From Tissierellales bacterium (GTDB lineage: Bacteria > Bacillota > Clostridia > Tissierellales > Sedimentibacteraceae): 64,000 bases of DNA. The position numbers and the translations under genes were made by a program. Shown here piece by piece: positions 1 to 44,325 of this stretch; position 1 is the stretch's first letter, and each line of letters starts with the position of its first letter. The notes below the pieces were generated by a model, which was not told the origin of the DNA, ran no database searches, and worked only from the letters and a program-made list of their open reading frames with translations. Location of the stretch: contig JAHDQO010000021.1 in the NCBI GenBank assembly GCA_018433765.1, forward strand, positions 1 through 64,000. The letters run 5' to 3'.

Positions 1-16
1 AAAGTCAACAAGATGG

Positions 17-139
17 CAGGCTTTTGAGAAACTCGAAGTTCGAGGCGTGCCGAAAGCGAGTAAGCGGAGCGTATATAGAAATACGTGAGCATTCTCGATT
101 GAGGCAACAACGATGAAATTCGGGTTTGTCAATAGCCTG
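17..139. repeat. Imperfect inverted-repeat element, GC-rich
   Basis: The outer arms, 17-45 and 111-139, are reverse complements at 22 of 29 positions. The interior holds smaller palindromes, such as CTCGAAGTTCGAG near 33-45. The block is clearly richer in G+C than its surroundings and contains no convincing open reading frame. It looks like a dispersed structured intergenic repeat (REP or MITE type) rather than a gene. Whether other copies exist in the genome cannot be seen here. Confidence 0.6.
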
Positions 140-165
140 AACTATAAACTAATTATAGTTACATC

Positions 166-702
166 TTAAACTCCAGGATCACTTCTAACAATAAATCCAT
201 ACTCACATTCATTTTCTGCCCATGTGCATATAAGCTTAAATCCTCTAATTGCAGCACCCGGTTTATAATCATCAAGGTTAGAACTAAACGCAACTGCATA
301 ATTTACATCTAATATAAATTTACATTTTCCATCAACAACTTCAATAGGTATTTCTTTAATCTCTGGAATCCAATACTTTATTTTACCTTTATCATCTAAA
401 ATATTATCGTATAATTTAACTGTATCTGGAGGGTCACCATTAAAATTAATATTGATTTCTTCATTTAAATTTATATATTTAAGCTTTTTAGAATCTTCCT
501 TCATTATTGTATCAAAGGTATCTTTGGAATCATTCCATGAATTCATTCCAACAGCATAATCTATATTAGTATCACCTGATACAATTGAAATTTTAGGTGG
601 TTGATTAGATGATTTATTTGTTGTATCATCATTACATGAAACTAAGCTTAAAATAATTATTATTAATACTACTATATTGCCTTTTTTCATTACTGAAATC
701 AT
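166..702 (-). CDS. Small lipoprotein coupled to a Cys-repeat precursor; possible immunity protein
   Basis: A 178-residue protein with a lipoprotein signal: a hydrophobic stretch ending in the lipobox LVSC, with the lipidated Cys at residue 23, so it should sit on the outer face of the membrane. The rest is hydrophilic and I recognise no domain. I chose the ATG at 702 because its ATGA overlaps the TGA of the upstream Cys-repeat precursor, which suggests translational coupling. An ATG at 690 is the alternative. Small lipoproteins encoded beside bacteriocin precursors often give self-immunity (LanI type). That role is an inference from position only. Gene 11 of the minus-strand peptide locus. 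Confidence 0.7.
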   Translation of the reverse strand: MISVMKKGNIVVLIIIILSLVSCNDDTTNKSSNQPPKISIVSGDTNIDYAVGMNSWNDSKDTFDTIMKEDSKKLKYINLNEEININFNGDPPDTVKLYDNILDDKGKIKYWIPEIKEIPIEVVDGKCKFILDVNYAVAFSSNLDDYKPGAAIRGFKLICTWAENECEYGFIVRSDPGV

Positions 703-875
703 GTCATGCACCCGCATCCACAATTTACACCATTAGCACAGCTACAACCGCAACCTGCTCCAGTTCTACATGTACACCCACATCCTTTTCCCTTTTCACA
801 GTCACATCCACAACCTGTACCTCCAGCATATTTTGTAACATTATGTAAAATTTGATTATTTCTTAATATCTTCAT
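699..875 (-). CDS. Cys-repeat RiPP precursor, 58 aa, 12 Cys
   Basis: Start chosen at 875 because AAGGAG lies just upstream; a longer in-frame start at 935 would run into the preceding gene. The leader is about 18 residues (MKILRNNQIL...), followed by four tandem units of a decapeptide G-C-G-C-x-C-x-x-G-x: GCGCDCEKGK, GCGCTCRTGA, GCGCSCANGV, NCGCGCMT. The 12 Cys all lie in the core. The leader resembles those of the precursors at 6986-7213 and 7434-7571 (M-[KD]-[IV]-L-R-[NE]). Short length, leader/core layout and nearby SPASM radical SAM genes point to a post-translationally modified peptide, perhaps with sulfur-to-carbon crosslinks. No product is known to me. Confidence 0.8.
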   Translation of the reverse strand: MKILRNNQILHNVTKYAGGTGCGCDCEKGKGCGCTCRTGAGCGCSCANGVNCGCGCMT

Positions 876-931
876 TAACAACTCCTTAACCTTTACTAAA
901 ATTCTATTTGAAAATATATTACTAGCATTTT

Positions 932-2941
932 TCACTTTAACATTATTATATTTTTATACAAAGCCATAAACTTATTACGACCATCTTCACTCATATAATC
1001 AATTGTAGCTAGTGCAATATCATAATTTCCAGTAACCTCAACGTAATGTAACACAGCATTATCAACACCTGCTTCTGACATAAAATTTATTATTGAATAC
1101 AAACTTTGTAAGTTGCTAGTTTCTTTAATATAATCAAATATTAATTCGTCAACTTTTTCTGTAGACATATCTGGAACTATCATCATTACTAGATACATAT
1201 TTTTAGTGCGATTATACCATTCATCTGCCACTAAATCAAAATATTCCTTACTATTGTTTTCCAGAATATCTTTATCAACTGTGTTTTCAATATATCTAAA
1301 AGCTTTTTTAGCTATATTAAAGTTTCTAGTTTTGAACATATAAAGAGAAACTGTTTTTTCAATACCATATGAACTCATATTTGGCAGCAACACACTCATT
1401 TCATCATTCCACATACCACAATAATCAATTATCATATATGCTTGTTTGTCACTATCATTAAATTTACTATATTCTTCTTGTGTTAAAACAGGTTCCCAGC
1501 AATTGATTTGACTACTTTCATTGAATTCATTATTTTGCGTTTGTATTCCAAGTAATGTAGATATTTCAGAGGAACATAATTCCAAAAACTCTTTTTGTCC
1601 CTCTTTAGTCATATACTCAACAGCAGCAATAACTGTACCATAATCCTTAGTTTGTTTTACATAATTAAATATTATCTTATCCATTCCCTCACGAGATATA
1701 TATTCTAACGATTTATATACACAGGAAAAATCTTTACTCTCATCTGTATTAGAAAATACCAATTCATCAACTTTTTTTGTTGACATATTTGGAAATAGCA
1801 TCATTACTAAATAAATGTCATTAGTACGTTTGTACCATTCATCTGCCACTAAATCATAATACCTTTTACTATCATTTTTTAGAATACCTTTATCCACTGT
1901 GTTATTAATATATTCAAAAACTTTTTTAGATACATTGAAATTTCTGGTTTTAAACATATAAAGAGAAACTGTCTTTTCAATACCATATGAACTCATATTT
2001 GGTAGCAAACCATTTATTTCTTCATTCCACATACCACAATAATCAATTATCATATACGCTTGTTTATCACTATCATTAAATTTACTATATTCTTCTTGTG
2101 TTAAAACAGGCTCTACCACTAATTGATTTAGCCTATTCTCAGTAACCTCATTGCTTTGTTCTTTTGTTCCAAGTACAGAAGATATTTCATAGGGACATAA
2201 TTCTAAAAACTTTTTTTGTCCCTCTTTAGTCATACAATCAACAGCAGCAATAACCGTACCATAATCATTAGTCAGTTCTACATAATTAAATATTATCTTA
2301 TCCATTCCATCACAAGATATATATTCTAACGATTTATATACACAAAAAAATTCTTTAGTTTCATTTGTATTAGAAAATACCAACTCATCAACTTTTTGTG
2401 TTGACATATTTGGAAATAACATCATCACTAAATAAATGTCATTAGTACGTTTGTACCATTCATCTGCCACTAAATCATAATACTTTTTACTATCATTCTT
2501 TAGAATATCCTTATCCACTGTGTTATTAATATATTCAAAAGTATTTTTAGTGTTTTCTAAAGCAAACTTATTTCCACCATTTCTTTTCATATAAACAGAT
2601 ACTATTCTTTCTACTCCATCTGAAGTCATTTGTGGAAGCATAAGATTAACCTCTTTAGTCCACATACCTGATGAATTCACTATTTGATATGCCTTTTCAT
2701 CATTCTCATTATATTGTTTCTCTTTATTTAAGGTTTTATCTGTAGAAATTTGATTATTGTTTTGATTTTCTGCTCTTAAATCTAAGATACTAGCATAAAC
2801 CACATTATTTAGCATACTATCGTTTTCAATGACATTATTTCCCATTATTTTTTTTTCATTTTTTATAAACAAAATAACAAATAAAACAATAAAAGCACAT
2901 AAACTATATTTTAAAATAAATTTATTTGTTTTATTCTTCAC
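932..2941 (-). CDS. Membrane-anchored protein with three near-identical ~175-residue repeats
   Basis: A 669-residue protein. Residues 8-27 form one N-terminal transmembrane helix or uncleaved signal anchor, so the bulk should be extracellular. Three tandem units follow at about 81-257, 290-465 and 497-669, sharing DEWYKRTNDIYLVMMLFP and similar blocks, and the first two are nearly identical there. The predicted helical content suggests alpha-solenoid-like repeats. No catalytic motif or family is recognisable. The start is GTG with GGGAG upstream. It sits between two precursor genes on the same strand, so a role in peptide export, immunity or target binding is possible but unproven. Confidence 0.75.
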   Translation of the reverse strand: MKNKTNKFILKYSLCAFIVLFVILFIKNEKKIMGNNVIENDSMLNNVVYASILDLRAENQNNNQISTDKTLNKEKQYNENDEKAYQIVNSSGMWTKEVNLMLPQMTSDGVERIVSVYMKRNGGNKFALENTKNTFEYINNTVDKDILKNDSKKYYDLVADEWYKRTNDIYLVMMLFPNMSTQKVDELVFSNTNETKEFFCVYKSLEYISCDGMDKIIFNYVELTNDYGTVIAAVDCMTKEGQKKFLELCPYEISSVLGTKEQSNEVTENRLNQLVVEPVLTQEEYSKFNDSDKQAYMIIDYCGMWNEEINGLLPNMSSYGIEKTVSLYMFKTRNFNVSKKVFEYINNTVDKGILKNDSKRYYDLVADEWYKRTNDIYLVMMLFPNMSTKKVDELVFSNTDESKDFSCVYKSLEYISREGMDKIIFNYVKQTKDYGTVIAAVEYMTKEGQKEFLELCSSEISTLLGIQTQNNEFNESSQINCWEPVLTQEEYSKFNDSDKQAYMIIDYCGMWNDEMSVLLPNMSSYGIEKTVSLYMFKTRNFNIAKKAFRYIENTVDKDILENNSKEYFDLVADEWYNRTKNMYLVMMIVPDMSTEKVDELIFDYIKETSNLQSLYSIINFMSEAGVDNAVLHYVEVTGNYDIALATIDYMSEDGRNKFMALYKNIIMLK
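935..2701 (-). repeat. Three tandem coding repeats inside the 669-aa gene
   Basis: The DNA units lie at about 2171-2701, 1547-2074 and 935-1453 (first to third in protein order). They are similar enough at DNA level to suggest recent duplication and possible unequal recombination. The third unit is the most diverged in its C-terminal half. Confidence 0.75.
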
Positions 2942-3094
2942 AGTAACATCTCCCTCTATACTATACTCATTTATTCTAAATCTACATAATTGACATTATA
3001 AAGTTTATGGTTAAAATTTATATTTATACTAACTATTCTTATACACTATCACATTTTTCGTCGTTTGTACAAAGCTTTAGGTAATTAGAATAAT

Positions 3095-3334
3095 TTAATT
3101 AACAGTATTCTTTAAATCCGCTTTTTCATAGTTTGCTTCTAAATTAACCATTGTATCATTACAAGTACCAGAACAAACATGACATCCAATATGTCCACCA
3201 TTACTTTTTCCCTTTGAGAAATTATTTGAAGGTATATTACATATACAAGCAAATGGTGAAACTCCTATTCCAAATAATTTCTCAGCATTGTCTTTTGTAA
3301 TAGGTCCTTTTCCTAAAACAGTTATCATTCTCAT
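3095..3334 (-). CDS. Second-type Cys-rich RiPP precursor, 79 aa
   Basis: The leader-like N-terminus contains V-L-G-K, a motif also present (S-L-G-K) in the precursor at 29737-29946. The five Cys are at 30, 32, 51, 54 and 58, arranged ACIC and GCHVCSGTC, and are followed by an acidic/basic tail without Cys. AAGGTGAT precedes the ATG. It lies downstream of a SPASM radical SAM gene, with a strong stem-loop between them. The LGK leader and the CcpM-like neighbour suggest relation to the CLI_3235-type peptides of Clostridia, but it differs from the decapeptide-repeat precursors of the same locus. Structure and activity of the product are unknown. Confidence 0.65.
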   Translation of the reverse strand: MRMITVLGKGPITKDNAEKLFGIGVSPFACICNIPSNNFSKGKSNGGHIGCHVCSGTCNDTMVNLEANYEKADLKNTVN

Positions 3335-3403
3335 ATTATCACCTTGTATAATGAAGTCATAAGGAAATCATTATACATTTTCCTTTCTAGATTATTTCTA
3401 TAT

Positions 3404-3466
3404 AATCTTTATTGAGCGCTGTGGATTAGTATTATCACCTACAGCTCCTCAATTATAATAAAGATT
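3404..3466 (-). terminator. Long stem-loop between maturase and 79-aa precursor
   Basis: The arms AATCTTTATT (3404-3413) and AATAAAGATT (3457-3466) are perfectly complementary, and the inner arms around GCTGTGG and CCTACAGC extend the stem. There is no clean U-tract on the minus strand, so it may be an attenuator or an RNA-processing or stability element rather than a full terminator. Confidence 0.6.
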
Positions 3467-3479
3467 ATTCTTTTAACGT

Positions 3480-5054
3480 TTAACAAATATGAAGTTTATC
3501 AACTTTTTTTATTAAATCAGCTTTATTTTCATAACATTCAAAGTAGTATATTAAACTGTTATAGGCATTATCTCTAGTATCAATACATGCTTTGTTAAGC
3601 TTTGTAACATTGAGCCCATTCTTGTCAAACACTTTAGCATAACAAATATCACAAAGCCTGACAGCCCAACATTTTGAACATTTTTCTTTAACTGCTTTTT
3701 CATATTCATGAACATATAATTTTTTTATAACATCTAAATTGAATCCTGAATATACATTGCCTATATATGGAGAATTTCCAATACGTTCACATACCTTGAA
3801 ATCTCCATTTACAGTAACATACAACCGTCTGTTTCCTGGTACACAACAACCATTAAAACTATATAAATCAAGTGGCTCTTCTAGAATAATTCTATTGTGT
3901 ATTCTTGATAAAGTATTTTCTAAATATTTTTTAGTAAATGTTATATCAATTTTATCATTTAAATACCTATTCTTTGTCCACACTGAAATAGGCGATATAT
4001 ATGAATCACCTGTTTCACTTATCTTTATTCCATCATATTTTCCAATTTTTCTATTTACTGAACCTTCCTCAGGATACGTAATATCCTTTTCTATCTCTTT
4101 AGGTAACCATTCTAAAGAATCAAAGAAATTTTGTATTTCATCAAGTTTAGAGTAAAGATATGGTTGTGCAAAAACCATGCTAATACTAATAGAATTAAGA
4201 GCCTTCTCATTATATTCATTAAGCAACAACTTTAAACCTCTAAGTGAATCTTCAAAACTTCCTTTTCCATTTTTATATTTTCTATATTCATCATGTATTT
4301 CTTTTGGTCCATCAATGCTTGCAGTTATATTAAAATTTTCTTTGTTAAAAAAAGTCGCCATTTCCTTTGTTAATAATGTTAAATTAGTAGTAATACCAAA
4401 AGAAATTTTTTTACCTTTCAATACTTTTTTACTATATTCCACACATTTTTTTAATAAATCAAATTTTAGTAATGGTTCACCTCCATAAAATACTATAGAT
4501 ATTTTGTTTTCTGATTTCATTGATAAAAAATCTATAGCTTTAAATGCTATTTCTTCTGTCATACTGCGCTCTGAAAAATTTCTATTTTCTTTATAATCTT
4601 GATTGTATATACAGTATTCGCATCTCAAATTACATTTTTCAGTTAATTCCAATGTCATTAAATGTATTGAAGACATAGCTTCTTCAATACATTCTTTATG
4701 TAACGGAGAATAAAATTTATTAATAAATTTTGCTTGTAGAATTTTATTTTTTTCTATAAATACTAGTAATTCTGTTAAAAATACATTAAAATCTTCCAAT
4801 AAAGATTCTTTCATATCTCTAATAAATTCTTTTAAATTACAATTGTCTTTTTCAAAAGCTGATATATAATTTAAAAAATCATATTCTTCTTTAGAGCATT
4901 GAAAAATCTTTCCAGTCCCTGCATCAAATAAATAGAAATATTTATTTGTTTTAAATAATTTACACAGTCTATCCATTCCACCATGTGAGTATATAATGTA
5001 ATTTAATTTTTCTAACTTTGTTAATGTATCCATTACTATATTATTAAATTTCAA
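3480..5054 (-). CDS. Radical SAM/SPASM peptide maturase (CcpM-like)
   Basis: A 524-residue protein. The radical SAM motif CNLRCEYC places Cys at 141, 145 and 148, and FYGGEPLL is the SAM-binding GGEP element. The C-terminus is Cys-rich (GCCVPG, VCER, CSKCWAVRLCDIC), as expected for SPASM auxiliary Fe-S clusters. Residues 1-125 form an N-terminal region that probably recognises the leader peptide. It is clearly similar to the maturase at 30037-31488 in the motif context (TEKCNLRCEYCIYN versus TQNCNLRCKYCVYS). It should modify Cys-rich precursors by radical chemistry. Its gene follows the ABC exporter after 19 bases and precedes the 79-aa precursor, which is its likeliest substrate. Confidence 0.85.
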   Translation of the reverse strand: MKFNNIVMDTLTKLEKLNYIIYSHGGMDRLCKLFKTNKYFYLFDAGTGKIFQCSKEEYDFLNYISAFEKDNCNLKEFIRDMKESLLEDFNVFLTELLVFIEKNKILQAKFINKFYSPLHKECIEEAMSSIHLMTLELTEKCNLRCEYCIYNQDYKENRNFSERSMTEEIAFKAIDFLSMKSENKISIVFYGGEPLLKFDLLKKCVEYSKKVLKGKKISFGITTNLTLLTKEMATFFNKENFNITASIDGPKEIHDEYRKYKNGKGSFEDSLRGLKLLLNEYNEKALNSISISMVFAQPYLYSKLDEIQNFFDSLEWLPKEIEKDITYPEEGSVNRKIGKYDGIKISETGDSYISPISVWTKNRYLNDKIDITFTKKYLENTLSRIHNRIILEEPLDLYSFNGCCVPGNRRLYVTVNGDFKVCERIGNSPYIGNVYSGFNLDVIKKLYVHEYEKAVKEKCSKCWAVRLCDICYAKVFDKNGLNVTKLNKACIDTRDNAYNSLIYYFECYENKADLIKKVDKLHIC

Positions 5055-5073
5055 TTTAGCAAACTCCTTTCAT

Positions 5074-6912
5074 TTATAAAGAAGTATAGTGTCTTGCTTG
5101 TGATAAGTAAAATTTTGCATATTCGCCATTATTGCCCATAAGCTGTTTATGTGTACCTTCTTCATGAATCTTTTTATTCTTTATAAAAATTATGTGATCT
5201 GCTTTATTTGCACAAGTCATCCTGTGAGATACATAAATTATCATTTTACTTGAAGATAAATTTTCAATTCTACGTATTAAATCATCTTCCGCCAATGGAT
5301 CCAATGCTGATGACGGTTCATCTAAAATTAGTATAGGTGATTCTCTGTATAAAGCTCTAGTAAGTGCAAGTTTTTGATTTTCTCCGCCAGATAAAATAAT
5401 ACCATCATCATGAAATATTTTTTCCAAATGAGTTTCCAATCCTTTGTCAAAAGTATTTACTTTATTCAATAATCCAGAATATGTAAGATGTTTATTAATT
5501 TTTTTAATACTATTTAAATTATTTTTATCATATTCAGACAAAGCAATATTTTCTCCTATCGTAAATGAAAAACATTTAAAATCCTGAAATACAGTACCAA
5601 ATAATTGTTTATATTGAATATAATCAATATTGTTAATTGGAATATCATTTAAATAAATAAATCCAGATGTAGGTTCATATAGTCTACAAATTAAATTAAT
5701 TAAAGTTGTTTTACCTGCACCATTTTCTCCTAATATTACATATAATTTTCCCGTCTCAAATGTACAATTAAAATTTTCTAATACATATTCATTACTATTT
5801 GGATATGAAAAATATACATTTTCAAATTTAATTACAAAATCATTATTCTTTAAAACCTCTTCTATAGAGATTGTTTTTTGTTTCAAATTATTATCGTTAT
5901 ATTGTTTATATATTTCACTTTCAAGTTCCATAAATTCCCTAAATGATTCTATATACTTACCATTAATATTTAATTTTGTTAAAAAAGTTACTAAACTTAC
6001 TAAAGAATTCGAAAGCTGATTAGTTGCACTAAAACATTGAGTAAAAGAGCCTACAGAAATGTTTTTATTAAATGTGATCCATGCTAAATAAAGGTAAATA
6101 CCACTATTTTTAATTATATCCGCAACACTTGATGTTATATTTATAGATATACTTATTTTATATAATTTATTTAGTCGCTGCTTTAAGTATTCGAGAGTCT
6201 TTTTATATTTTTTCATAATCCACTCAACAAATCCATAAACTTTCATTTCTTTAATATTTTTTTTATCACCTAAAATTTGTATATAATAATTTATAACTCT
6301 TGTTAAATACATATTTTCATCTCGAAATTTAATTTGCCACAATTCTGCAATATTATTTAAAATAAATGATATTGCAGTAAAAAAAGCTATAACAATAAGC
6401 AATCTACTATCAGCCACTATAATAATAGTAACTGTTGATATAATTAATATTATATTAGATATTGCCTGAAAAAAACTATCAATGAGATTGTTTCCAATAC
6501 CTTTATAAATTATATCTTGAGCAAGAGCAATTTTTTGATGTGTTTCTGGATTATCAAGTTGTGACATATCTAGTGTTACAACTTTCTTATTTATTAACAA
6601 TAAAAAATGCATAGCATACAAATGTCCATTTAAATTGATAAATTTATGCTCAAGAAAAATATTAATTACCGTAGCAAAAACTTGAATAAAGAAATATATA
6701 CATATATACTTAATTATTAAATCAAAATCGTTACCAGAAATTATTTCATCAATAATTAACTTTGGTAAAATCATATATATCAAAGGAGTTACTCCATTCA
6801 TGATTGCTAGAACTGCTTGTGCAATAACATATGATTTACTAAAATCTTTAACATACTTAAAGAAATATAAATTATTTAAAAGATTTTTTTTTAAGAGACG
6901 TATAAAAGTCAT
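5074..6912 (-). CDS. ABC exporter (fused membrane and ATPase domains), peptide type
   Basis: A 612-residue half-transporter: about six membrane helices in residues 25-330, then an ATPase with Walker A GENGAGKTT, signature LSGGENQK and Walker B ILILDEP. It should form a homodimer and export the modified peptides. There is no N-terminal C39 peptidase domain, so leader removal must be done by another protein. AAGGAG precedes the ATG. It lies between the 75-aa Cys-repeat precursor, from which it is separated by a 14-bp stem-loop, and the radical SAM gene. Confidence 0.85.
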   Translation of the reverse strand: MTFIRLLKKNLLNNLYFFKYVKDFSKSYVIAQAVLAIMNGVTPLIYMILPKLIIDEIISGNDFDLIIKYICIYFFIQVFATVINIFLEHKFINLNGHLYAMHFLLLINKKVVTLDMSQLDNPETHQKIALAQDIIYKGIGNNLIDSFFQAISNIILIISTVTIIIVADSRLLIVIAFFTAISFILNNIAELWQIKFRDENMYLTRVINYYIQILGDKKNIKEMKVYGFVEWIMKKYKKTLEYLKQRLNKLYKISISINITSSVADIIKNSGIYLYLAWITFNKNISVGSFTQCFSATNQLSNSLVSLVTFLTKLNINGKYIESFREFMELESEIYKQYNDNNLKQKTISIEEVLKNNDFVIKFENVYFSYPNSNEYVLENFNCTFETGKLYVILGENGAGKTTLINLICRLYEPTSGFIYLNDIPINNIDYIQYKQLFGTVFQDFKCFSFTIGENIALSEYDKNNLNSIKKINKHLTYSGLLNKVNTFDKGLETHLEKIFHDDGIILSGGENQKLALTRALYRESPILILDEPSSALDPLAEDDLIRRIENLSSSKMIIYVSHRMTCANKADHIIFIKNKKIHEEGTHKQLMGNNGEYAKFYLSQARHYTSL

Positions 6913-6944
6913 TTTGTTTCTCCTTGTAAAAACAAATTTAAACC

Positions 6945-6974
6945 ATCGATGCTAGTTAAATAACTAGCACCGAT
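6945..6974 (-). terminator. 14-bp stem-loop between precursor and exporter genes
   Basis: ATCGATGCTAGTTA (6945-6958) pairs with the segment ending at 6974, with one G-U wobble and a 2-base loop. A run of five T lies 12 bases further on in the minus-strand transcript. It probably acts as a partial terminator or 3' stabiliser that keeps precursor mRNA more abundant than exporter mRNA. Confidence 0.6.
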
Positions 6975-6985
6975 AGTCTGTAAAT

Positions 6986-7213
6986 TTAAGTAGGTATACA
7001 ACCGCAACCGCAACCTATACCTACACTGCCACATCCGCAGCCACAACCTATTCCACTTGTAGGAGGTGGATTACAATTACAACCTATGCCACCTGCGCAA
7101 GCTTGACCCATATAACATCCACAGCCAATTCCGTTTGCACATCCGCAACCACAACCCTTACCAATATTAATTGGTAGATTAGAATTTTGATTACCTTCTC
7201 TTAATACATCCAT
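6986..7213 (-). CDS. Cys-repeat RiPP precursor, 75 aa, 14 Cys
   Basis: Leader MDVLREGNQNSNLPINIGK, then a Gly/Cys core: GCGCGCANGI, GCGCYMG, QACAGGI, GCNCNPPPTSGI, GCGCGCGSVGI, GCGCGCIPT. The units follow the same G-C-G-C-x-C scheme as the 58-aa and 45-aa precursors but with irregular spacing, one unit reduced to a single Cys, and a Pro-rich interruption. AGAGG precedes the ATG. It sits directly upstream of the ABC exporter. The leader shares M-D-[VI]-L-R-E with the 45-aa precursor. The core is Gly and Cys rich and lacks aromatic residues apart from one Tyr, so it is probably a heavily crosslinked or metal-binding peptide. Confidence 0.8.
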   Translation of the reverse strand: MDVLREGNQNSNLPINIGKGCGCGCANGIGCGCYMGQACAGGIGCNCNPPPTSGIGCGCGCGSVGIGCGCGCIPT

Positions 7214-7313
7214 TTAATTTACCTCTTTTCAATTAATTGCAATTAGAAAGCTTTATATTTAACTACATATTTGTAACTTAAAAAATAGCAAGTTTTTATT
7301 TAATAATACTAAA

Positions 7314-7395
7314 TCAACTACATCCACAGCCACAGCCCAAATCCATACATATTTTTGTGAGTTTTTGTGATTAATTGTTTCTTAGTATTTTTAAT
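7314..7395 (-). pseudogene. Decayed Cys-repeat precursor
   Basis: The upstream sequence GTTAAGGAGT matches the ribosome-site region of the 58-aa precursor, and the leader region aligns with that gene, but the start codon is ATT instead of ATG. Reading on gives a degenerate leader (KNTKKQLITKTHKN), then a frame change. In the next frame the DNA still encodes GCGCGCS before a stop. Only one Cys unit remains. It lies between two intact precursors, which points to tandem duplication and loss within the array. Confidence 0.6.
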
Positions 7396-7433
7396 TTAGA
7401 ACTCCTTAACATTTACTAAAATATGTAAGCAAA

Positions 7434-7571
7434 TTAATTGCATCCACATCCTGCTCCTCCAGTACATCCACAACCGCATCCTGCTCCAGTTGTACATCCA
7501 CATCCACATCCTTTTCCAGGATAAAAAGTATTCACACTACTTTGTTTAGAATTTTCTCTAAGGATATCCAT
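7434..7571 (-). CDS. Cys-repeat RiPP precursor, 45 aa, 8 Cys
   Basis: A short gene with a near-perfect ribosome binding site (AGGAGG, 7 bases before the ATG at 7571). The product has leader MDILRENSKQSSVNTFYPGK and core GCGCGCTTGA, GCGCGCTGGA, GCGCN, an exact decapeptide period. The leader matches that of the 75-aa precursor (M-D-[IV]-L-R-E). It follows the radical SAM/SPASM gene at 7648-8985 by 76 bases on the same strand, so that enzyme is its most likely modifier. The short length and clean repeat make this the simplest member of the family. Confidence 0.8.
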   Translation of the reverse strand: MDILRENSKQSSVNTFYPGKGCGCGCTTGAGCGCGCTGGAGCGCN

Positions 7572-7647
7572 AATTACACCTCCTTCTTTAAGCTTTCAAA
7601 TTAACAAAATATAAAAAAATAACTTATTTAAGCTATAAATATGTCTT

Positions 7648-8985
7648 TTAATTATAATAACTTATTAATTGTTCTAATGTATTTTCTTCAGCTTTTGCAT
7701 CACAAAAATAAGATTCGCCATGTACTCTACCATTTATACATCTACCACCGAAACAAATTGGCAAAACTCTACAATTTTTACATTCATCAGGCAAATCTAT
7801 TTTTGCACCAACCCATTTTGAAAATTTATTACTATCAATAACTATTTCACCATCTTTTATATATCCTACGTGATTTATATCATCATCTAATACCAAAGTA
7901 CATTTCATAATTGTTCCATCATAATCAACTAGTAAATTATTATGTTTAGATGCATAGCAAATTCTACTGTATGGCAGTGTCATGGCATCAATCAAGTCAT
8001 TATTCAAACCTAAGCTTGATATTTTTTTTGCTATATTTACACTTTGTTCGTCAACATTAACTTTATGTAGTATATCTAATTGATCATCTTTTTTTCCTCC
8101 TAATTTTTTTATGCCTTCATAATACACGCTAAATCTTTCGTCTAGTATTTCACTTAAATATTCATAAAATTCTTCTGCTCTCTGAAAAACTTCATCGTTA
8201 AAATTCGTTCTAACAGTAACTTTAAAATCATGTTTTGTGGTAACCATATATTTAATATTTTCTATGATTTGATTCCAACTTCCTTTTCCATCAGCATTAA
8301 TTCTATATTTATCATGAGTATCTGAAAAACCATCAATTGTAATCTGGTAATATCTACATCCAGCGTTTATTAATCTATCAAATCTATCTGGATAAATTAA
8401 TGTTCCATTTGTTGTTGCAGAAACGAAATAAGGAACATCATATTTCTGACAAATCTCATTAGCTTTTTCTAAAAATACAATTAAATTATCATACTCAACA
8501 AATGGTTCTCCACCAAACAAACCAATAGATACCCTATTATGAACTTTATTCTTCAGTGATGTTTCCAAATACTCTAAAATTGAATCATATATTTTTTTAT
8601 CCATAACTCTATTTTCATGTTCTTCGTAGCAATAAACACACCGCAAATTACATTGTCGAGTAACAATCAACGTCATGTCCAAACCTCTATCATTTACAAC
8701 GTCTCTTTCATAGCAATATCTTACAAATTCATATTCATTTTTATTTTCTGGAACTAAAAACCCATTATCATATAATGTGGATATAATTTCACAATCTGAT
8801 GAATATTGTATTATGTCATTATCCATGATATTTTTTAATTTATCAATTTTTTCTTTATTGTGAATATTAATAATTGAACCAGTCATAGAATTAAAAATTG
8901 TAAAACTTTCATCTTCTCTCGGTACATAAAAATTATAAAAACTTTTTTTTAATGATTTTGGCTTTTCAATACTTTTTTTTCTCAT
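7648..8985 (-). CDS. Radical SAM/SPASM peptide maturase, probable modifier of the Cys-repeat peptides
   Basis: A 445-residue protein. I chose the ATG at 8985, which follows GGGAGG at good spacing, over one 12 bases earlier. CNLRCVYC gives the [4Fe-4S] Cys at about 112, 116 and 119, and FGGEP is the SAM-binding element. The C-terminal SPASM region has IC, MKC, CKNC, PIC, RC and FC cysteines. Residues 1-95 resemble the N-terminal leader-binding region of sactipeptide/ranthipeptide maturases. It is first in the locus behind a consensus promoter and is followed directly by the Cys-repeat precursors. It differs in sequence from the CcpM-like enzyme at 3480-5054, so two different maturases serve this locus. 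Confidence 0.87.
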   Translation of the reverse strand: MRKKSIEKPKSLKKSFYNFYVPREDESFTIFNSMTGSIINIHNKEKIDKLKNIMDNDIIQYSSDCEIISTLYDNGFLVPENKNEYEFVRYCYERDVVNDRGLDMTLIVTRQCNLRCVYCYEEHENRVMDKKIYDSILEYLETSLKNKVHNRVSIGLFGGEPFVEYDNLIVFLEKANEICQKYDVPYFVSATTNGTLIYPDRFDRLINAGCRYYQITIDGFSDTHDKYRINADGKGSWNQIIENIKYMVTTKHDFKVTVRTNFNDEVFQRAEEFYEYLSEILDERFSVYYEGIKKLGGKKDDQLDILHKVNVDEQSVNIAKKISSLGLNNDLIDAMTLPYSRICYASKHNNLLVDYDGTIMKCTLVLDDDINHVGYIKDGEIVIDSNKFSKWVGAKIDLPDECKNCRVLPICFGGRCINGRVHGESYFCDAKAEENTLEQLISYYN

Positions 8986-9059
8986 AATACCTCCCAATAA
9001 TTTTTTGATATAAAAACTAAGTAACTAAATATATATGCCAAAATTTCCTAATTATCAAG

Positions 9060-9088
9060 ATAATATCATTTATTATAAATAATGTCAA
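9060..9088 (-). promoter_or_regulatory. Sigma-A type promoter for the peptide locus
   Basis: On the minus strand, TTGACA (9083-9088), a 17-base spacer and TATTAT (9060-9065), about 75 bases before the maturase start at 8985. It probably starts transcription of the whole leftward locus. Confidence 0.75.
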
Positions 9089-9158
9089 TATTTTATTCCA
9101 TTTTATTCTATTATTTAACAATATTTATTAAGATTTATAGGTTTTTTTTGTCAAATAA

Positions 9159-9198
9159 AAAGTCAATTAGAATTATTCTATTGAATTCCAATTGACTT
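9159..9198 (-). terminator. Terminator after the acetyltransferase gene
   Basis: The AAGTCAATT and AATTGACTT arms flank a weaker inner stem, and TTTTTATTT follows on the minus strand. The rest of the 338-base gap between 8985 and 9323 holds the promoter at 9060-9088 and no gene that I can see. Confidence 0.65.
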
Positions 9199-9322
9199 CT
9201 ACATATTATGGTACGATGAAAATACATAATTTTCAACTTTGAGGCTTTCTCATTTATATTTTAGGCCTAATAAGTTGACTTGTTTTAGTTTTTAATTGAC
9301 AATTATGACTTATCTACAATAT

Positions 9323-10117
9323 CTATCTCAATTTTACTGTTAACACTCTGTGATAAGGATAAAATCCACTCTTCTCTATTGTGTGCTGAGAAGCAATATT
9401 ATCCTTATCTGTAGAACATATAGCTTTTAATCCTTGTTTATTAGCTAAAAGCCTCATATTAGATAATATATAAGTACCAATATTCATTCTTCTATATATT
9501 TCAGAAACAGTCACACCGAGATTTGCATATGATTTACTGCTGAAACTAGGTCTCATCTCACCTGTTCCAATTATTTTATCTTCAATCTTATATAAAATTA
9601 ATCCATGATTACATATTAAATCCTTGCAGTATTTAATTAACCAATCACCTTTGAAACCCATTTCATTATTATAAACCAGCACTCTATCAAGGTCTTCTAC
9701 ATTTGCTAATTGAGAACTAATTGATTCTAATGGTTTCTTGAATTCAATAGCTTCCATTTCAGTATATAAATAGCTATTAATTTCAACGCCATCATTATTA
9801 TCTAAGCACAATGACAAATATCTTGGTTCAGACGTACTTACAAAAGCTTGTTTTATTTCTTTGCTTGTTTTTATAAGCTCAAAAATGTTTGAAGATTCGT
9901 TTAGGCACTCATCTTTTAAAAAGAACTGCAAAAGATTATTATCATTATCTACTACAAAATAACCTAATACATCTTCTTTCTTTTTTATTGTAAAATAATC
10001 ACCTTTTCCGATTATCCCTGATTCCCACATATCATCCATTGGAGCAGTAACATTTTTATAATAGCTATTAATCATTTCATTAATATTCTCTTTATCTACT
10101 TTAATTAAATCATACAT
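9323..10117 (-). CDS. GNAT-family N-acetyltransferase
   Basis: 264 residues. The C-terminal third shows the GNAT acetyl-CoA fold: the core strand GVTVSEIYRRMNIGTYIL followed by QHTIEKSGFYPYHR, which is typical of the Q/RxxGxG/A-type loop region and the last strand. The N-terminal half (1-130) is poorly conserved, as in two-lobe GNAT proteins. Substrate unknown. AAAGGAG precedes the ATG. It follows the AraC gene by 25 bases on the same strand and probably shares its transcript. Confidence 0.8.
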   Translation of the reverse strand: MYDLIKVDKENINEMINSYYKNVTAPMDDMWESGIIGKGDYFTIKKKEDVLGYFVVDNDNNLLQFFLKDECLNESSNIFELIKTSKEIKQAFVSTSEPRYLSLCLDNNDGVEINSYLYTEMEAIEFKKPLESISSQLANVEDLDRVLVYNNEMGFKGDWLIKYCKDLICNHGLILYKIEDKIIGTGEMRPSFSSKSYANLGVTVSEIYRRMNIGTYILSNMRLLANKQGLKAICSTDKDNIASQHTIEKSGFYPYHRVLTVKLR

Positions 10118-11330: not shown

Positions 11331-11363
11331 TCAAGCTTGACAATTACTAATTGTCAAGCTTGA
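11331..11363 (-). terminator. Perfect 15-bp hairpin holding the permease stop codon
   Basis: TCAAGCTTGACAATT (11331-11345), loop ACT, then the exact reverse complement (11349-11363). The TAG of the permease gene reads through the loop. The U-rich tail is weak, so it could also stabilise the 3' end of the mRNA. Confidence 0.6.
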
Positions 11364-12072
11364 TTGCACTTGCTGGGCATTTAGAAATAATTTGTTCTAA
11401 CTTTTCTTTATCTGCCTCTGTAACTTCTCTCTTAATACATTTAGCCTTTTTATTTTCCACTGCAAAATATTCAGGTATAAGCTTAGAACATAATCCACAG
11501 CCAATGCAATAATTCTGATTAACTTTTAGACTGCCTTCTTCAAACTTATCCTTAACTTCTATAGGTATGTTATTCTTTTTAACAATTTTGTTAACAATAT
11601 AAGCCATCAACATTATTGATGTCACTGTCAATATCCATCGTATTCCCATAAATTCTCCACCAAGAAACTTAACTTCATTTATAAGCATCGGCACCTTAAT
11701 TACTGCCCAAGCACTTAAGATAATAATTATATTATAAATACTCGCACCTTTTTTAAGAAGCATTTTGCACACAGGAAAAGCTGCATAAATTGGTCCTGCT
11801 GAGAAGCTTCCAATAACAAAAGACAATACACTTCCCTTTATTCCTGAATCTTCACCAAAACTATTATATATAACCTTTCTTGGTACCCAAGCTTCAAGTA
11901 GTGAAGTTAATATAAATACAACTGGCATAATTTCAAGCATTTCTATAACATAATACATGCTGTTTTTAACTGCTTCCTGACCCTTATTAGGCATTACTAC
12001 AAATAACACAATATAAATTAATATTACTACTGATAATAGCTTGTTTCCTTTTAAAAACTTTAATATCTTCAC
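11347..12072 (-). CDS. Permease half (COG0701-like) with C-terminal ferredoxin domain
   Basis: 241 residues with a GTG start after AAAGGAA. Residues 1-165 carry about five membrane helices, including GSFSAGPIYAAFPVCKMLLK, typical of the UPF0718/ArsP-related permease family. Residues 184-241 form a single-cluster ferredoxin: CIGCGLC at 189-195 and a closing SKCPASAI Cys near 232. The gene at 12117-12599 encodes the other half, so the two would assemble one transporter. Substrate unknown. The Fe-S domain suggests coupling to redox state. A very similar pair without ferredoxin lies at 43124-44142. Confidence 0.75.
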   Translation of the reverse strand: MKILKFLKGNKLLSVVILIYIVLFVVMPNKGQEAVKNSMYYVIEMLEIMPVVFILTSLLEAWVPRKVIYNSFGEDSGIKGSVLSFVIGSFSAGPIYAAFPVCKMLLKKGASIYNIIIILSAWAVIKVPMLINEVKFLGGEFMGIRWILTVTSIMLMAYIVNKIVKKNNIPIEVKDKFEEGSLKVNQNYCIGCGLCSKLIPEYFAVENKKAKCIKREVTEADKEKLEQIISKCPASAIKLDN

Positions 12073-12116
12073 GTTAATATTCCTTTCGTTTAATTTTTTT
12101 ATAATTTATAATTAAT

Positions 12117-12599
12117 CTAAATTATTACACCCATAACTAATGCTATAATTATTGCAAATACAAAGCTCAATAAATTTCTAGTCACTGTAAATTTAAGACC
12201 AAATTCTTCCTTCTCTAGTGGAAATGTAACTATACCAACCATTGTTAAAGTTGTTAAGAATGCTGCCGAAGGTACTAAACTTGCTCCAGCATCAACCAAT
12301 GATCCTACTAATGGGAAAGCTACAAAAGCTGGTATTAAAGTTATACTTCCTATTAATGCAGATATTGCTGTAGAAATATAAACATTTGATTTACCTAATA
12401 AAACTTTAATAGTATCAGGCGGAACAAAAGTTAATATAAGTCCAATTAAAAGCAGTATAGCAAAAATTTCTCCAATCATTCCCTTCATTAATCCTCGTGC
12501 CATCTTCATAGAATTTAAGGTTTTTAGTTTATCTTTCTTTAAAAATACAACAAAACAAATTGCAGTAATTATCCAAAGTGCTACTGTAAATATATCCAT
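12117..12599 (-). CDS. Permease half (COG0701-like), partner of the ferredoxin-bearing half
   Basis: 160 residues with four to five membrane helices. The conserved core IGSITLIPAFVAFPLVGSLV corresponds to the repeated half of this permease family, and TMVGIVTFPLE follows. GAGGAG precedes the ATG. It lies upstream of and 44 bases from the ferredoxin-bearing half. Transcription appears to start from the region shared with the divergent Crp/Fnr gene, which carries a perfect palindrome. Confidence 0.75.
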   Translation of the reverse strand: MDIFTVALWIITAICFVVFLKKDKLKTLNSMKMARGLMKGMIGEIFAILLLIGLILTFVPPDTIKVLLGKSNVYISTAISALIGSITLIPAFVAFPLVGSLVDAGASLVPSAAFLTTLTMVGIVTFPLEKEEFGLKFTVTRNLLSFVFAIIIALVMGVII

Positions 12600-12660
12600 T
12601 TAATCATCTCCTCTTTTAATTTTGCTGATTATATATTATAATTTTTATAGAATAAAATCT

Positions 12661-12674
12661 GTTACCATGGTAAC
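12661..12674. promoter_or_regulatory. Perfect palindrome GTTACCATGGTAAC, probable Crp/Fnr operator
   Basis: It lies between the divergent permease and Crp/Fnr genes and has the 5-N4-5 geometry of Fnr-type sites. The centre is about 27-28 bases upstream of a minus-strand TATAAT, close to a class II activator position. The paralogous cassette has a palindrome with the same TTAC-N4-GTAA core at 44214-44231. Confidence 0.6.
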
Positions 12675-12700
12675 TAATTAATAATATTTTGGAGTGTTTT

Positions 12701-13381
12701 ATGAAAACTGAAAATTACATACAATTTTTAAAGATTAATCCTCTTTTTAAAGATGTACCTTATATTGAAATAAAATATATCTTTGAAAATAGTACAGATA
12801 TATCTTGTACTTCATATAGAAAAAATAGTGTTATTCATTTTGAAAGTGAAAAATGTTCTACCTTAGATATAGTAATGGAAGGAACAGTTCTTGTACAAAA
12901 AATTGATGAAAAGGGAAATATACTAACAATAACTGAATTTATTGAAGGTGATAATATGGGTGGTAATCTGCTTTTCTCAAACTTACCTTTTTATCCTATG
13001 AGCGTAATTTCAAAAACTTCTGCTGTTATTCTGCATGTAAAAAAAGACACAATTTTAAATCTGTGCCAGAGTAATTTAAATTTTCTTAAGAATTTTTTAT
13101 GTGACATATCCTCTAAAGCTAACCTTTTAACTGGAAAAATAAAAGCCATCTCACAAAAAACTATAAGAGAAAGCATTATTGATTTTTTGAACTATGAATA
13201 CTGCCTTCAAAATTCTTATAAAATTAAACTTTCAATGACTAAGAAAGAACTTGCAGAAAAGCTTGGAATACAAAGAACTTCTTTATCTCGAGAATTAAGT
13301 AAAATGAAAAAAGATGGTTTGATTTGTTTTGATGCTCATTCCATAACTATAGAAAAGAAAAATTTAATCGTTTCAAAATAA
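12701..13381 (+). CDS. Crp/Fnr-family transcription regulator
   Basis: 226 residues from the ATG that follows GGAG (12701). The N-terminal cyclic-nucleotide-binding-like beta barrel covers about 5-120 (FIEGDNMGGNLLFSNLPFYP), and a winged helix-turn-helix covers 150-220 with recognition region KKELAEKLGIQRTSLSRELS. There is no N-terminal Fnr-type Cys cluster, so oxygen sensing by an Fe-S cluster is not indicated. It is divergent from the split permease, with a palindrome in between, and probably controls those genes. It is similar to the regulator at 44326-45015. Confidence 0.85.
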   Translation: MKTENYIQFLKINPLFKDVPYIEIKYIFENSTDISCTSYRKNSVIHFESEKCSTLDIVMEGTVLVQKIDEKGNILTITEFIEGDNMGGNLLFSNLPFYPMSVISKTSAVILHVKKDTILNLCQSNLNFLKNFLCDISSKANLLTGKIKAISQKTIRESIIDFLNYEYCLQNSYKIKLSMTKKELAEKLGIQRTSLSRELSKMKKDGLICFDAHSITIEKKNLIVSK

Positions 13382-29736: not shown

Positions 29737-29946
29737 ATGAGCAAAATAAGCTTAGGTAAAAAGAACAACTTTGAAAAAGGTACTTTTGTAGCATATGCTT
29801 GTAACTGTAACTGTTTTGCTATTTGTGGTACATGCAATAACTGTAATTACAGTACACCACAAGAAGTAGGCACATATTACTTAGATTACGCAGAAAAAAG
29901 TAAAGCTAACACTAGTACATACTCTGCTTTAGTTTGGTTTGGTTAA
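29737..29946 (+). CDS. CLI_3235-type Cys-rich peptide precursor, 69 aa
   Basis: AAAGGAGG precedes the ATG. The leader has S-L-G-K-K, then VAYACNCNCFAICGTCNNC: six Cys at 22, 24, 26, 30, 33 and 36, followed by a Cys-free tail ending VWFG. The LGK leader, the A-Y-A-C entry into the Cys block and the adjacent CcpM-type radical SAM gene match what I remember of the CLI_3235 putative bacteriocin family of Clostridia. Crosslinks and activity are undetermined. A hairpin separates it from the maturase gene. Confidence 0.75.
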   Translation: MSKISLGKKNNFEKGTFVAYACNCNCFAICGTCNNCNYSTPQEVGTYYLDYAEKSKANTSTYSALVWFG

Positions 29947-29965
29947 AAGCTAAGTAAAAGTACAC

Positions 29966-29995
29966 AGCCGGAAAGCTCAATTAAGCTTTCTGGCT
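29966..29995 (+). terminator. Hairpin between precursor and maturase
   Basis: AGCCGGAAAGCT (29966-29977) pairs with AGCTTTCTGGCT (29984-29995), with a 6-base loop and no U-tract. It is probably an attenuator or RNA stabiliser, as in locus 1. Confidence 0.65.
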
Positions 29996-30036
29996 GAACT
30001 AATATATTAAAATTATTTATTAATGGAGGTGTCAAC

Positions 30037-31488
30037 ATGCTAACTGAAAAGCCTCATATACATATGTTTAATCTATATAATAATTACTATATGTATGACG
30101 TTAATTCTAATTCTATTTTTGAAATACCTAAAGAAATACATGATTATTTAAGTGTAGTAATGAGTATAGATAATCAAACAGTTCTGCAAGAATTATATGA
30201 TGAATTGAGTTTTAATTCAAAAAAAGGACTAGAGTATTTTTCTAAACAAGGCTTACTAAAACCTGTACAAAATACAATAAAATTTGAACATGTAGAAACT
30301 AATAGATTAGAAGAAATATATAATGGTAACTTAAAAAATATTACTTTACAAGTAACTCAAAACTGCAATTTACGCTGTAAATACTGCGTATATTCAGGAA
30401 GCTACTCTAATAGAACTCATACAAATAAAAGGATGTCTTTTGAAACTGCTAAAAAAGCTCTAGATTTTTTTAATACTCATTCTAGTAATAATAAAAAATT
30501 AACAATAGGTTTTTATGGAGGTGAACCCCTATTAGAGTTTGATTTAATTAAAAAAAGTATAGAATACGCTAAAGAAATATTTTACGGAAAAGAGCTTTTC
30601 TTTACAATGACAACAAATGGAACAATTATGAATGAAGAAATCATAAAACTTCTTTCTGACAATAATCTTCATTTAGTTATTAGTTTAGATGGTGCAAAAA
30701 AAATTCAAGATGCAAATAGAGTCTTTGCTGATAACAATACAGGAACATTTGATACTGTTATAAATAACATAGAAAAAATTAAAAATATAAATGAACATTA
30801 TTTAAATAATCACATAAGCTTTAATGCAGTTATTGATTTATCTAAAGATTTCAATTGTGCAAATGACTTTTTTGTTAATTATGATACAGTTAAAAATTTA
30901 GGAGTAACAGGTAATTTTATAAATACTACTACTAGAATTGATGAATACACTATAGATGATCAATACGCTGCTGATTCACAATATGAAATTTTCAAGGTTT
31001 TTCTAAATAAATGTACTGATGTGTTAAAAAACTATGAGTCAAGATTGTTAACTCCTGCTTTTGAATCGTTGATTATAAATATACATAATAGAAAGGTTGT
31101 CAATAACGAAAATGCTACCACTACTTCACCCGGCGGGCAGTGTATACCTGGAATTCAAAGATTTTTTGTTACTTCTGATGGAGTCTTTTATCCGTGTGAA
31201 AGAGTCAACGAAACAGAAGAACTTTCAATAGGGGATATTGATGATGGTTTTAATTTAGAAAAAGCTAAAAAAATATTAAATGTTGGAAAACTTACTGAAA
31301 AAGAATGCAGACAATGCTGGAACTTTCAATTATGCAGTCATTGTATATCAACTTGTGAACAAAATGGAGTTTTGTCTAGAACTAGAAGATTATCTAGATG
31401 TAATGACATGAAAACAAGTACAGAAAATCAAATAAAAAACTATATAACTTTAAAGAAATATGGTTGTGATTTTGAAGAAAGTAGGTAG
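30037..31488 (+). CDS. ccpM: Radical SAM/SPASM Cys-rich peptide maturase CcpM
   Basis: 483 residues. CNLRCKYC places the cluster Cys at 110, 114 and 117, and FYGGEPLL is the SAM site. The SPASM-type C-terminus has GGQCIPG, YPCERV, CRQCWNFQLCSHC and RCNDM. The N-terminal 90 residues probably hold the leader-recognition region. It should install bonds on the six-Cys peptide by SAM radical chemistry. GGAGG precedes the ATG. The gene order with a TIGR04066-type protein and an acyl-carrier-related protein supports the CcpM assignment. Confidence 0.85.
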   Translation: MLTEKPHIHMFNLYNNYYMYDVNSNSIFEIPKEIHDYLSVVMSIDNQTVLQELYDELSFNSKKGLEYFSKQGLLKPVQNTIKFEHVETNRLEEIYNGNLKNITLQVTQNCNLRCKYCVYSGSYSNRTHTNKRMSFETAKKALDFFNTHSSNNKKLTIGFYGGEPLLEFDLIKKSIEYAKEIFYGKELFFTMTTNGTIMNEEIIKLLSDNNLHLVISLDGAKKIQDANRVFADNNTGTFDTVINNIEKIKNINEHYLNNHISFNAVIDLSKDFNCANDFFVNYDTVKNLGVTGNFINTTTRIDEYTIDDQYAADSQYEIFKVFLNKCTDVLKNYESRLLTPAFESLIINIHNRKVVNNENATTTSPGGQCIPGIQRFFVTSDGVFYPCERVNETEELSIGDIDDGFNLEKAKKILNVGKLTEKECRQCWNFQLCSHCISTCEQNGVLSRTRRLSRCNDMKTSTENQIKNYITLKKYGCDFEESR

Positions 31489-31493
31489 ATATT

Positions 31494-32591: not shown

Positions 32592-32602
32592 GAGGTTTTA
32601 AT

Positions 32603-32872
32603 ATGGATAGAAAAGAAATTATCAATGAAACTAATCTTGTAATACGTAATAATCTTCACATAGATTTATCAAAACTTACAAAGGAACAAGAAAATTACAG
32701 TTTACTGCATCCAAAAGTAGGTCTTGAACCTAGAGATTTGGTAGCTATATTTTTTGAACTTCAAAACGCTTTTAATATAAAGTTTGAAGAAAAGGATATA
32801 ATGGAAAATAGGTTTGACTATTATAACAATATAATAGATATTATTGAAGAAAAACTGCGTAAGGTAAGTTAA
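32603..32872 (+). CDS. Acyl-carrier-related protein lacking the carrier Ser
   Basis: 89 residues with the four-helix carrier-protein pattern: VGLEPRDLVAIFFELQNAF followed by IKFEEKDI. In true carriers the helix II start reads D-S-L, with Ser carrying phosphopantetheine; here it is P-R-D-L, so it probably cannot be primed. It corresponds to the acyl carrier-related protein of this maturation system (TIGR04069 type). It may act as a scaffold. AGGAGG precedes the ATG. Its stop abuts the protease start. Confidence 0.7.
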   Translation: MDRKEIINETNLVIRNNLHIDLSKLTKEQENYSLLHPKVGLEPRDLVAIFFELQNAFNIKFEEKDIMENRFDYYNNIIDIIEEKLRKVS

Positions 32873-44142: not shown

Positions 44143-44213
44143 ATTGTACTCCATTTCACTTTATAAGTTAATAGTTAATTTTCTTACGAAAATTTGATTT
44201 TTTATTTTAAATC

Positions 44214-44231
44214 GCTTTACGTAAGTAAAGC
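44214..44231. promoter_or_regulatory. Palindrome GCTTTAC-N4-GTAAAGC, probable Crp/Fnr operator
   Basis: An exact inverted repeat with a 4-base centre in the gap between divergent permease and regulator genes. It shares the TTAC-N4-GTAA core with the site at 12661-12674. Confidence 0.6.
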
Positions 44232-44325
44232 TTCCATAACTTTACACTTTTATCTTTTAACTTTTATCTTAATAAGCTTTTTCTTGTTTTTACTAATTTA
44301 TTATATTACAATTTACTTGGGAGGT

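Follow-up and report, generated by a model that had tools for sequence, protein, structure and literature searches.

The DNA analysed here, which we call the window, is a stretch of 64,000 nucleotides (nt) from a Tissierellales bacterium, beginning at base 1 of contig JAHDQO010000021.1 (C33) in a 4.19-Mb genome. On its minus strand, three short genes for peptides rich in glycine and cysteine (Gly-Cys peptides) are interleaved with two SPASM-type radical S-adenosylmethionine (radical-SAM) genes and an ATP-binding cassette (ABC) exporter, at the positions given by an earlier sequence-only reading of this DNA. Read along that strand, the order is a maturase, precursor 3, a decayed precursor copy, precursor 2, a hairpin, the exporter, a RumMC-like enzyme, a RumC-like precursor, a protein of 669 amino acids (aa), precursor 1 and a lipoprotein. 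The locus is co-directional, with intergenic gaps of 19 to 220 nt up to precursor 1 and only 19 nt between the exporter and the RumMC-like gene. Since the window begins at the contig end (C33:1), the left side of the locus may have been cut off.

The Gly-Cys genes, precursor 1 (699..875, 58 aa, 12 Cys), precursor 2 (6986..7213, 75 aa, 14 Cys) and precursor 3 (7434..7571, 45 aa, 8 Cys), are intact open reading frames (ORFs) with an ATG start and, by eye, a ribosome-binding-like sequence just upstream. Each encodes a short leader followed by a Gly-Cys repeat core, which confirms the earlier description. The fixed period ascribed to the cores is found in two of the three peptides. The cysteines of precursor 1 are spaced 2,2,6,2,2,6,2,2,6,2,2, an exceptionless ten-residue unit, and precursor 3 keeps the same period (2,2,6,2,2,6,2), but the spacing in precursor 2 is irregular and looser. 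Of the 2.7 billion ways to place 12 Cys in a 38-residue core, 4 give the period of precursor 1, and the 9 Cys pairs of this peptide at lag 10 were reached in none of 20,000 shuffles (shuffle maximum 7). Gly and Cys codons differ synonymously between the repeat units, so the repeat did not arise by a recent duplication of DNA, and these differences argue for its maintenance at the protein level. A decayed copy of precursor 1 lies at 7320..7422 on the same strand; its part 7348-7422 aligns with the start of precursor 1 (blastn, 77% over 78 alignment columns, E 7e-12), and the Gly-Cys part down to 7320 only weakly (E 0.15).

The three peptides matched no NCBIfam model to E 10 and no Pfam family, metallothioneins included, to E 1, although HMMER filters may hide matches of such low-complexity cores; PHROGs gave no match either, and the four matches of the 45-aa peptide among PDB sequences (best E 0.15) are not credible. 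The NCBIfam search included TIGR04065, TIGR04067 and the other precursor families that the earlier reading had proposed for comparison. That reading's suggestion of an overlap with the CA_C0660 family was not upheld, as TIGR04067 is unmatched by the three peptides and the window's CcpM/CLI_3235 system lies at another locus. A search of the bacterium's own genome with TIGR04067 likewise gave no match at E 10.

The locus is composite. The maturase (7648..8985), precursors 3 and 2 and the exporter (5074..6912) are one cassette, and the RumMC-like enzyme (3480..5054, 524 aa) and the RumC-like precursor (3095..3334, 79 aa, C30-x-C32 ... C51-x2-C54-x3-C58) are a separate sactipeptide-type module. 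The enzyme of this module is alone among ten tested in carrying exactly CX13GX4CX36CX2CX5CX2CX18C, the cysteine signature of RumMC1/2 (PMC6779426), and its precursor shares C-x-C ... C-x3-C with ruminococcin C. There are differences, since the precursor has a fifth Cys and wider spacing and the enzyme stays below the cut-off of RumMC model NF035951 (493.2 bits, cut-off 720), as it does for CcpM model TIGR04068 (286.4 bits, cut-off 500). The precursor matches TIGR04067 weakly (16.5 bits, cut-off 45) and resembles no PDB sequence to E 10. A search of 226 genomes of the class at E 1e-110 gave this enzyme in one, the window's own. The likeness to ruminococcin C concerns this module and not the Gly-Cys one; the two would work independently on the same strand, perhaps using the same exporter. 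The RumC-like gene, the decayed precursor copy and the second Gly-Cys locus on contig C32 described below were absent from the earlier listing.

Recurrence of the cassette and a second locus in the same genome

Orthologs of the maturase lie directly beside Gly-Cys peptides in Tissierella praeacuta (61% identity), Tepidibacter thalassicus (59%) and an uncultured Eubacteriales metagenome-assembled genome (MAG; 44%). With the window's own, four genomes, a small sample, pair Gly-Cys peptides with this subfamily of SPASM enzymes, and a related exporter is present at three of the four loci. Identity to the window's exporter is 61% in the T. praeacuta cassette, which includes three Gly-Cys peptides (one of them looser), and 59% in that of T. 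thalassicus, where there is a single peptide. The MAG has enzyme and peptide only, flanked by what by eye are trp genes on one side and his genes on the other; the pair has a promoter-like site, and a terminator-like site lies upstream. The MAG peptide, GCGCDCSSGAGCGCDCGIGAGCGCDCSTGAGCGCDC plus a tail, has the exact 2,2,6 Cys period of the window, and again none of 20,000 shuffles reached its Cys periodicity (shuffle maximum 8). All eight enzyme-linked peptides fit the leader pattern M-[DEK]-[IV]-[ILV]-R. Gly accounts for 140 and Cys for 112 of the 412 residues in 11 pooled Gly-Cys cores, the other 160 being of different kinds, and 69 of the 102 Cys spacings in the 11 peptides are 2 and 20 are 6 (one leader Cys included).

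Adjacency in four genomes gives good support to the reading of the Gly-Cys genes as precursors of a ribosomally synthesised and post-translationally modified peptide (RiPP) with a radical-SAM maturase. This much of the RiPP system proposed earlier stands. The inclusion of both SPASM genes in one Gly-Cys system is not supported, since only 7648-8985 recurs beside Gly-Cys peptides and 3480-5054 has a RumC-like precursor of its own.

The distribution of the cassette is sparse and patchy, and would fit horizontal transfer. In the large searches scoring was limited to a few top candidates from each genome. A maturase search of 392 genomes of the class gave six at E 1e-45 or better, including the window's own; G154 (61%) and G417 (39%) adjoin Cys-rich peptides, and no Gly-Cys peptide was found in the 1.5-kb flanks in G229, G103 and G074 (30%). 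Scanning contigs with the maturase gave 16 loci, and a Gly-Cys repeat peptide, called by GCGC or GC.C.C in small ORFs, stands beside the enzyme at three of them: L016 (T. praeacuta, on the same contig as G154), L017 (T. thalassicus) and L018 (the MAG). Among enzymes in the 33-40% identity range, L020/G417 and L021 have 'GCDCVC'/'GCDCHC' cores instead, L019 a two-Cys candidate and L022 no Gly-Cys peptide. No Gly-Cys repeat peptide was found at any of these four beside the enzyme, or by profile in their genomes, and core type therefore seems to follow the enzyme subfamily. A maturase profile matched 3 of 249 genomes of the order at 1e-80 and 2 of 398 genomes of the phylum at 1e-70; G613 among the former has no Gly-Cys peptide within 18 kb, and G957, the second of the latter, has none within 17 kb. 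In the family of T. thalassicus the only match among 71 was T. thalassicus itself. The exporter was found at 1e-130 in 3 of 228 genomes of the order (the own genome with two copies, G154 and G024). A peptide profile, A2, gave matches in 2 genomes out of 391 from the class and in 3 out of 7 selected ones, always only at enzyme loci; it was built from eight Gly-Cys peptides, the same ones that it later found, and these counts are lower bounds, as it missed one of the three T. praeacuta peptides in the class search and all three peptides of the C32 locus.

Mobile carriage of the enzyme was considered and rejected: three plasmid records match at 27-28% identity only, none of 34 phage records reaches at least 60% (24-34% among the 20 listed), and seven IMG/VR loci reach at most 31%. 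The exporter matched no plasmid record at E 1e-70, and IMG/VR scans for single Gly-Cys peptides gave none that could be confirmed.

The second exporter copy in the own genome, 57% identical to that of the window, lies at C32:250846-252624. Upstream of it are three tandem Gly-Cys genes of 50, 54 and 41 aa, one with a core of GCGCGCGCGCGCGC plus a short tail; these genes and the exporter together form the locus L058 6971-9633 (G000:C32). The nearest radical-SAM genes are 5.8-10 kb further upstream, of other kinds, with opposite-strand genes between. These (L064 6959-12004, G000:C32) are a MoaA-like radical-SAM gene and two of B12-radical-SAM type, found with a PqqD-like gene, all below model cut-offs and followed by M50-like peptidase and MFS-like proteins (both by eye); the stretch is possibly a further peptide locus.

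Several related loci show features of their own. At L015 and L021 related enzymes with 'GCDCxC' cores occur with exporters and two further genes of similar appearance (by eye an HPr-kinase-like and a nucleotidyltransferase-like one), and in Lachnospiraceae bacterium 28-4 a small ORF with SGCGCTGNCGQSCSGGCETGCSGNCGRSCSG lies near a weakly related radical-SAM gene (L030 around 7784). The Tissierella cassette is flanked (L014 4408-5016, 10812-12868) by a protein resembling AgrB (23.7 bits, cut-off 282) and by two genes that by eye look like a regulator and a kinase, and quorum-sensing control of this cassette is possible.

Maturase and proposed chemistry

The 445-aa maturase has intact radical-SAM (CxxxCxxC, as CNLRCVYC) and SPASM (C-x2-C-x5-C-x4-C) cysteines, and stands beside Cys-rich precursors, two of the features expected of sactipeptide and ranthipeptide systems. 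It scores 16.3 against the Pfam SPASM model, below the cut-off of 21.5. Among solved structures the nearest by sequence profile is CteB (5wgg, E 5.5e-23), a thioether enzyme, followed by TigE (8vpo, E 2e-17). An AlphaFold (AF2) model built on 7 sequences has a mean predicted local distance difference test score (pLDDT) of 78, with four low-confidence segments. It superimposes on TigE with Z 22.1 (root-mean-square deviation 4.1, 390 residues) and on CteB 5why/5wgg with Z 20.1/19.9 (381/395 residues), the N-terminal region included in both, and on anSME with Z 21.6 over residues 100-445 only.

We consider it somewhat better than an even bet, with a probability of about 0.55, that the Gly-Cys genes encode precursors of a radical-SAM RiPP with repeated Cys-Gly thioethers. 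The N-terminal domain of the maturase would bind the leader, and the radical centre would move along the repeat, abstracting hydrogen, most likely from Gly alpha-carbons. Each radical carbon would then join a Cys sulfur with the loss of 2 Da per bond, an unlinked protease would cut off the leader, and the ABC protein would export the product, probably an antibacterial or signalling peptide. Bonds from Cys-S to Gly-C(alpha), repeated along the core, are the likeliest linkage, and we hold this with moderate confidence. Gly is favoured as the acceptor because the shortest core, that of the Tissierella 35-aa peptide, is GCGCGCGCGCGCGTKA and offers little else. A core made almost only of Gly and Cys narrows the possible chemistry strongly. 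Gly is known as a thioether acceptor in streptosactin (Cys31-Gly34, PMC8172795), and RumMC2 accepts an engineered Gly61 (PMC8188230). A more specific picture, a ladder of small Cys-S/Gly-alpha-carbon thioether rings along a near-pure Gly-Cys repeat, with the same enzyme serving the C32 precursors in trans, is speculative; if it were true, neighbouring residues bonded to each other would form six-membered thiomorpholinone rings. The two-gene unit of the MAG and the Tissierella 35-aa peptide would be small and clean systems for experimental studies.

Several observations weigh against repeated thioethers made by this enzyme. The strongest is that no SPASM maturase adjoins the precursors and exporter of the C32 locus. 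The own genome has 10 matches to the maturase at E 1e-5, the next best only 25% identical, with no close paralog among them. For these reasons the C32 peptides would have to be modified in trans or by something else, or need no modification. Their leaders, M-[EV]-V-K-R with a poly-Gly linker, also fall outside the pattern of the enzyme-linked peptides. The MAG pair has no adjoining exporter, and the best exporter match anywhere in that genome is 32% identical. Next to the Gly-Cys genes neither a protease nor a clear immunity gene was recognised, and Cys counts of Gly-Cys peptides include the odd numbers 13, 11 and 7. The maturase is far below the cut-off of all the named maturase models compared, of which CefB (NF038107) is best with 172 bits (cut-off 600), before TIGR04463 (165, cut-off 525), PapB (121, cut-off 340), CcpM (TIGR04068, 94.6, cut-off 500) and SCIFF (72, cut-off 425). 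The modelled fold, finally, leaves the chemistry undecided, as TigE and anSME are tied, and neither is known as a thioether enzyme. TigE is a cyclopropyl synthase with repeat sequences as its substrate.

As an alternative, the peptides might be little modified or unmodified and serve, exported or kept in the cell, as metallothionein-like chelators of copper, zinc or iron, an idea already raised in the sequence-only reading, which we regard as doubtful. C-x-C-x-C clusters at a fixed period would suit metal binding, the C32 locus combines peptides and exporter with no adjoining maturase, and copper-binding repeat-Cys RiPPs exist in the captophorins with their EGKCG repeats (PMC12668002). There are two weaker pointers. 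A split ArsP_1-type permease begins 2.4 kb upstream of the maturase, and in Tissierella a gene that by eye looks FeoB-like lies about 5 kb away from the cassette. However, the ORF lists show no recognised metal transporter or regulator inside the cassettes, positions 1-40000 of the window gave no Rfam match and hence no known metal-responsive RNA, and some other reason would have to be found for the SPASM enzyme that accompanies the peptides in four genomes. A different radical chemistry iterated on the repeat, such as epimerisation, C-C bonds or Cys-centred chemistry, would agree with TigE as the top fold match (tied with anSME), and TvgB converts TVGG repeats to poly-cyclopropylglycine (PMC9062424). 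We think this unlikely, since the conserved core residues are Cys and Gly, the core of the Tissierella 35-aa peptide lacks the Val or Ile that cyclopropane chemistry would need, and it is CteB that is nearest by sequence profile.

Two further explanations concern the partners of the peptides. The two radical-SAM enzymes might act together on the two precursor types to make one multi-component product, much as thuricin CD, with its two peptides, relies on two radical-SAM enzymes (PMC12093266), and the single strand and short gaps of the locus would agree with this. It is improbable, as the RumMC-like enzyme has its own precursor and no RumMC-like gene was found within the stretches read in T. 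praeacuta and T. thalassicus, nor at E 1e-110 in the T. praeacuta genome. The cores could also be cyclised to thiazoles by a distant YcaO enzyme. Heterocycloanthracin precursors do have Gly-Cys repeats and are sometimes encoded far from their enzyme (PMC4603692), and an exporter 53% identical to that of the window occurs in a YcaO/SagB locus of a genome of the same family. We find azoles very improbable here, because no YcaO was recognised among the ORFs of the Gly-Cys loci, the whole genome not having been searched for one, and TIGR03601 is among the NCBIfam models that the three peptides leave unmatched, with the reservation on low-complexity filters given above.

Compared with known systems, SCIFF/CteB, PapB-type ranthipeptides, CefB and TIGR04463 likewise combine a SPASM enzyme with an extra N-terminal domain and an adjoining short Cys-rich precursor, but the window core is a Gly-Cys repeat and its enzyme scores far below their cut-offs. 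Streptosactin shares the Cys-to-Gly alpha-carbon thioether; however, it has two separate small rings and no Gly-Cys repeat. Heterocycloanthracin/sonorensin (TIGR03601) has Gly-Cys cores and sometimes distal precursors, with a YcaO cyclodehydratase and not a radical-SAM enzyme. Short-repeat cores with radical-SAM/SPASM enzymes, as here, are known from TvgA and the Asp-Cys repeat clusters 59/115 (PMC9062424), although these have TVGG or Asp-Cys repeats and the Tvg chemistry is Val-based. Captophorins are repeat-Cys RiPPs too, but with an MNIO enzyme, thiooxazoles and copper, and described from Pseudomonadota. In a literature search that left most subscription papers beyond reach we found neither a Gly-Cys repeat core paired with a radical-SAM/SPASM enzyme nor a peptide scaffold made of a ladder of thioether rings. 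The novelty that the earlier reading saw in the core therefore holds for this pairing within the literature searched, and not for Gly-Cys repeats as such, which are known in the YcaO-modified heterocycloanthracins (PMC4603692). Taken together, the comparisons point to a real, rare and patchily spread radical-SAM RiPP-type cassette with an unusual core, whose product would have the chemistry discussed above.

Neighbouring genes, regulation and further loci in the window

The exporter of the cassette (612 aa) has no recognised peptidase domain, none being among its 12 Pfam matches. Between precursor 2 and the exporter lies an 18-bp, terminator-like hairpin (6940..6979, minus strand). A hairpin stands between the last precursor and the exporter at all four loci folded, with folding z-scores of -9.0 in the window, -5.9 in Tepidibacter, -5.2 in Tissierella and -2.8 at C32, where 4 of 200 shuffles fold equally well. 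Only in the window and in Tepidibacter does a terminator scan pick this hairpin up, and a common sequence is not apparent among the four. The window hairpin may act as a read-through attenuator; because of its position, the precursors would probably be made in excess of the exporter. Upstream of the maturase a promoter-like site, TTGACA-17-TATTAT at 9060..9088 (minus strand), has the top score on this strand within 1-9400; it is a consensus match only, and 95 such sites were found against 75.6 expected.

The 669-aa protein (932..2941, minus strand) is co-directional with the locus and has an N-terminal hydrophobic segment and, by eye, similar stretches inside; NCBIfam, Pfam and PHROGs matches gave no function for it. 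The predicted lipoprotein (166..690, minus strand), with an LVSC lipobox by eye, starts just after precursor 1 if the ATG at 690 is used, or overlaps it if the ATG at 702 is. As a guess, it might be an immunity protein.

About 20 kb from the Gly-Cys locus, on the plus strand, lies a CcpM/CLI_3235-type locus (29737-36018) with a Cys precursor (29737-29946; TIGR04065 21.8 bits, cut-off 26), CcpM (30037-31488; TIGR04068 518.5 bits, over the cut-off of 500), a TIGR04066 protein (31494-32591; 276, over the cut-off of 200), a subtilisin-like protease (QhpE model 74, cut-off 165) and an ABC exporter. With the Gly-Cys and RumC-like loci, several radical-SAM peptide systems have accumulated side by side within about 36 kb.

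The locus in the same-family genome G024 whose exporter is 53% identical to that of the window (L065 7905-16295) contains YcaO and SagB, both scoring above cut-off, together with a radical-SAM gene that by eye looks SPASM-like and a possible precursor in which CGGGCSGACTPGCCDVPPACCDGC occurs; it is a possible azole/radical-SAM hybrid. The window also holds two copies of a split ArsP_1-type permease, each of two half genes (11347-13381 and 43124-45015), one half of the second copy being just below cut-off. Both adjoin a divergent Crp-like regulator (by eye), and one copy has a C-terminal ferredoxin domain.

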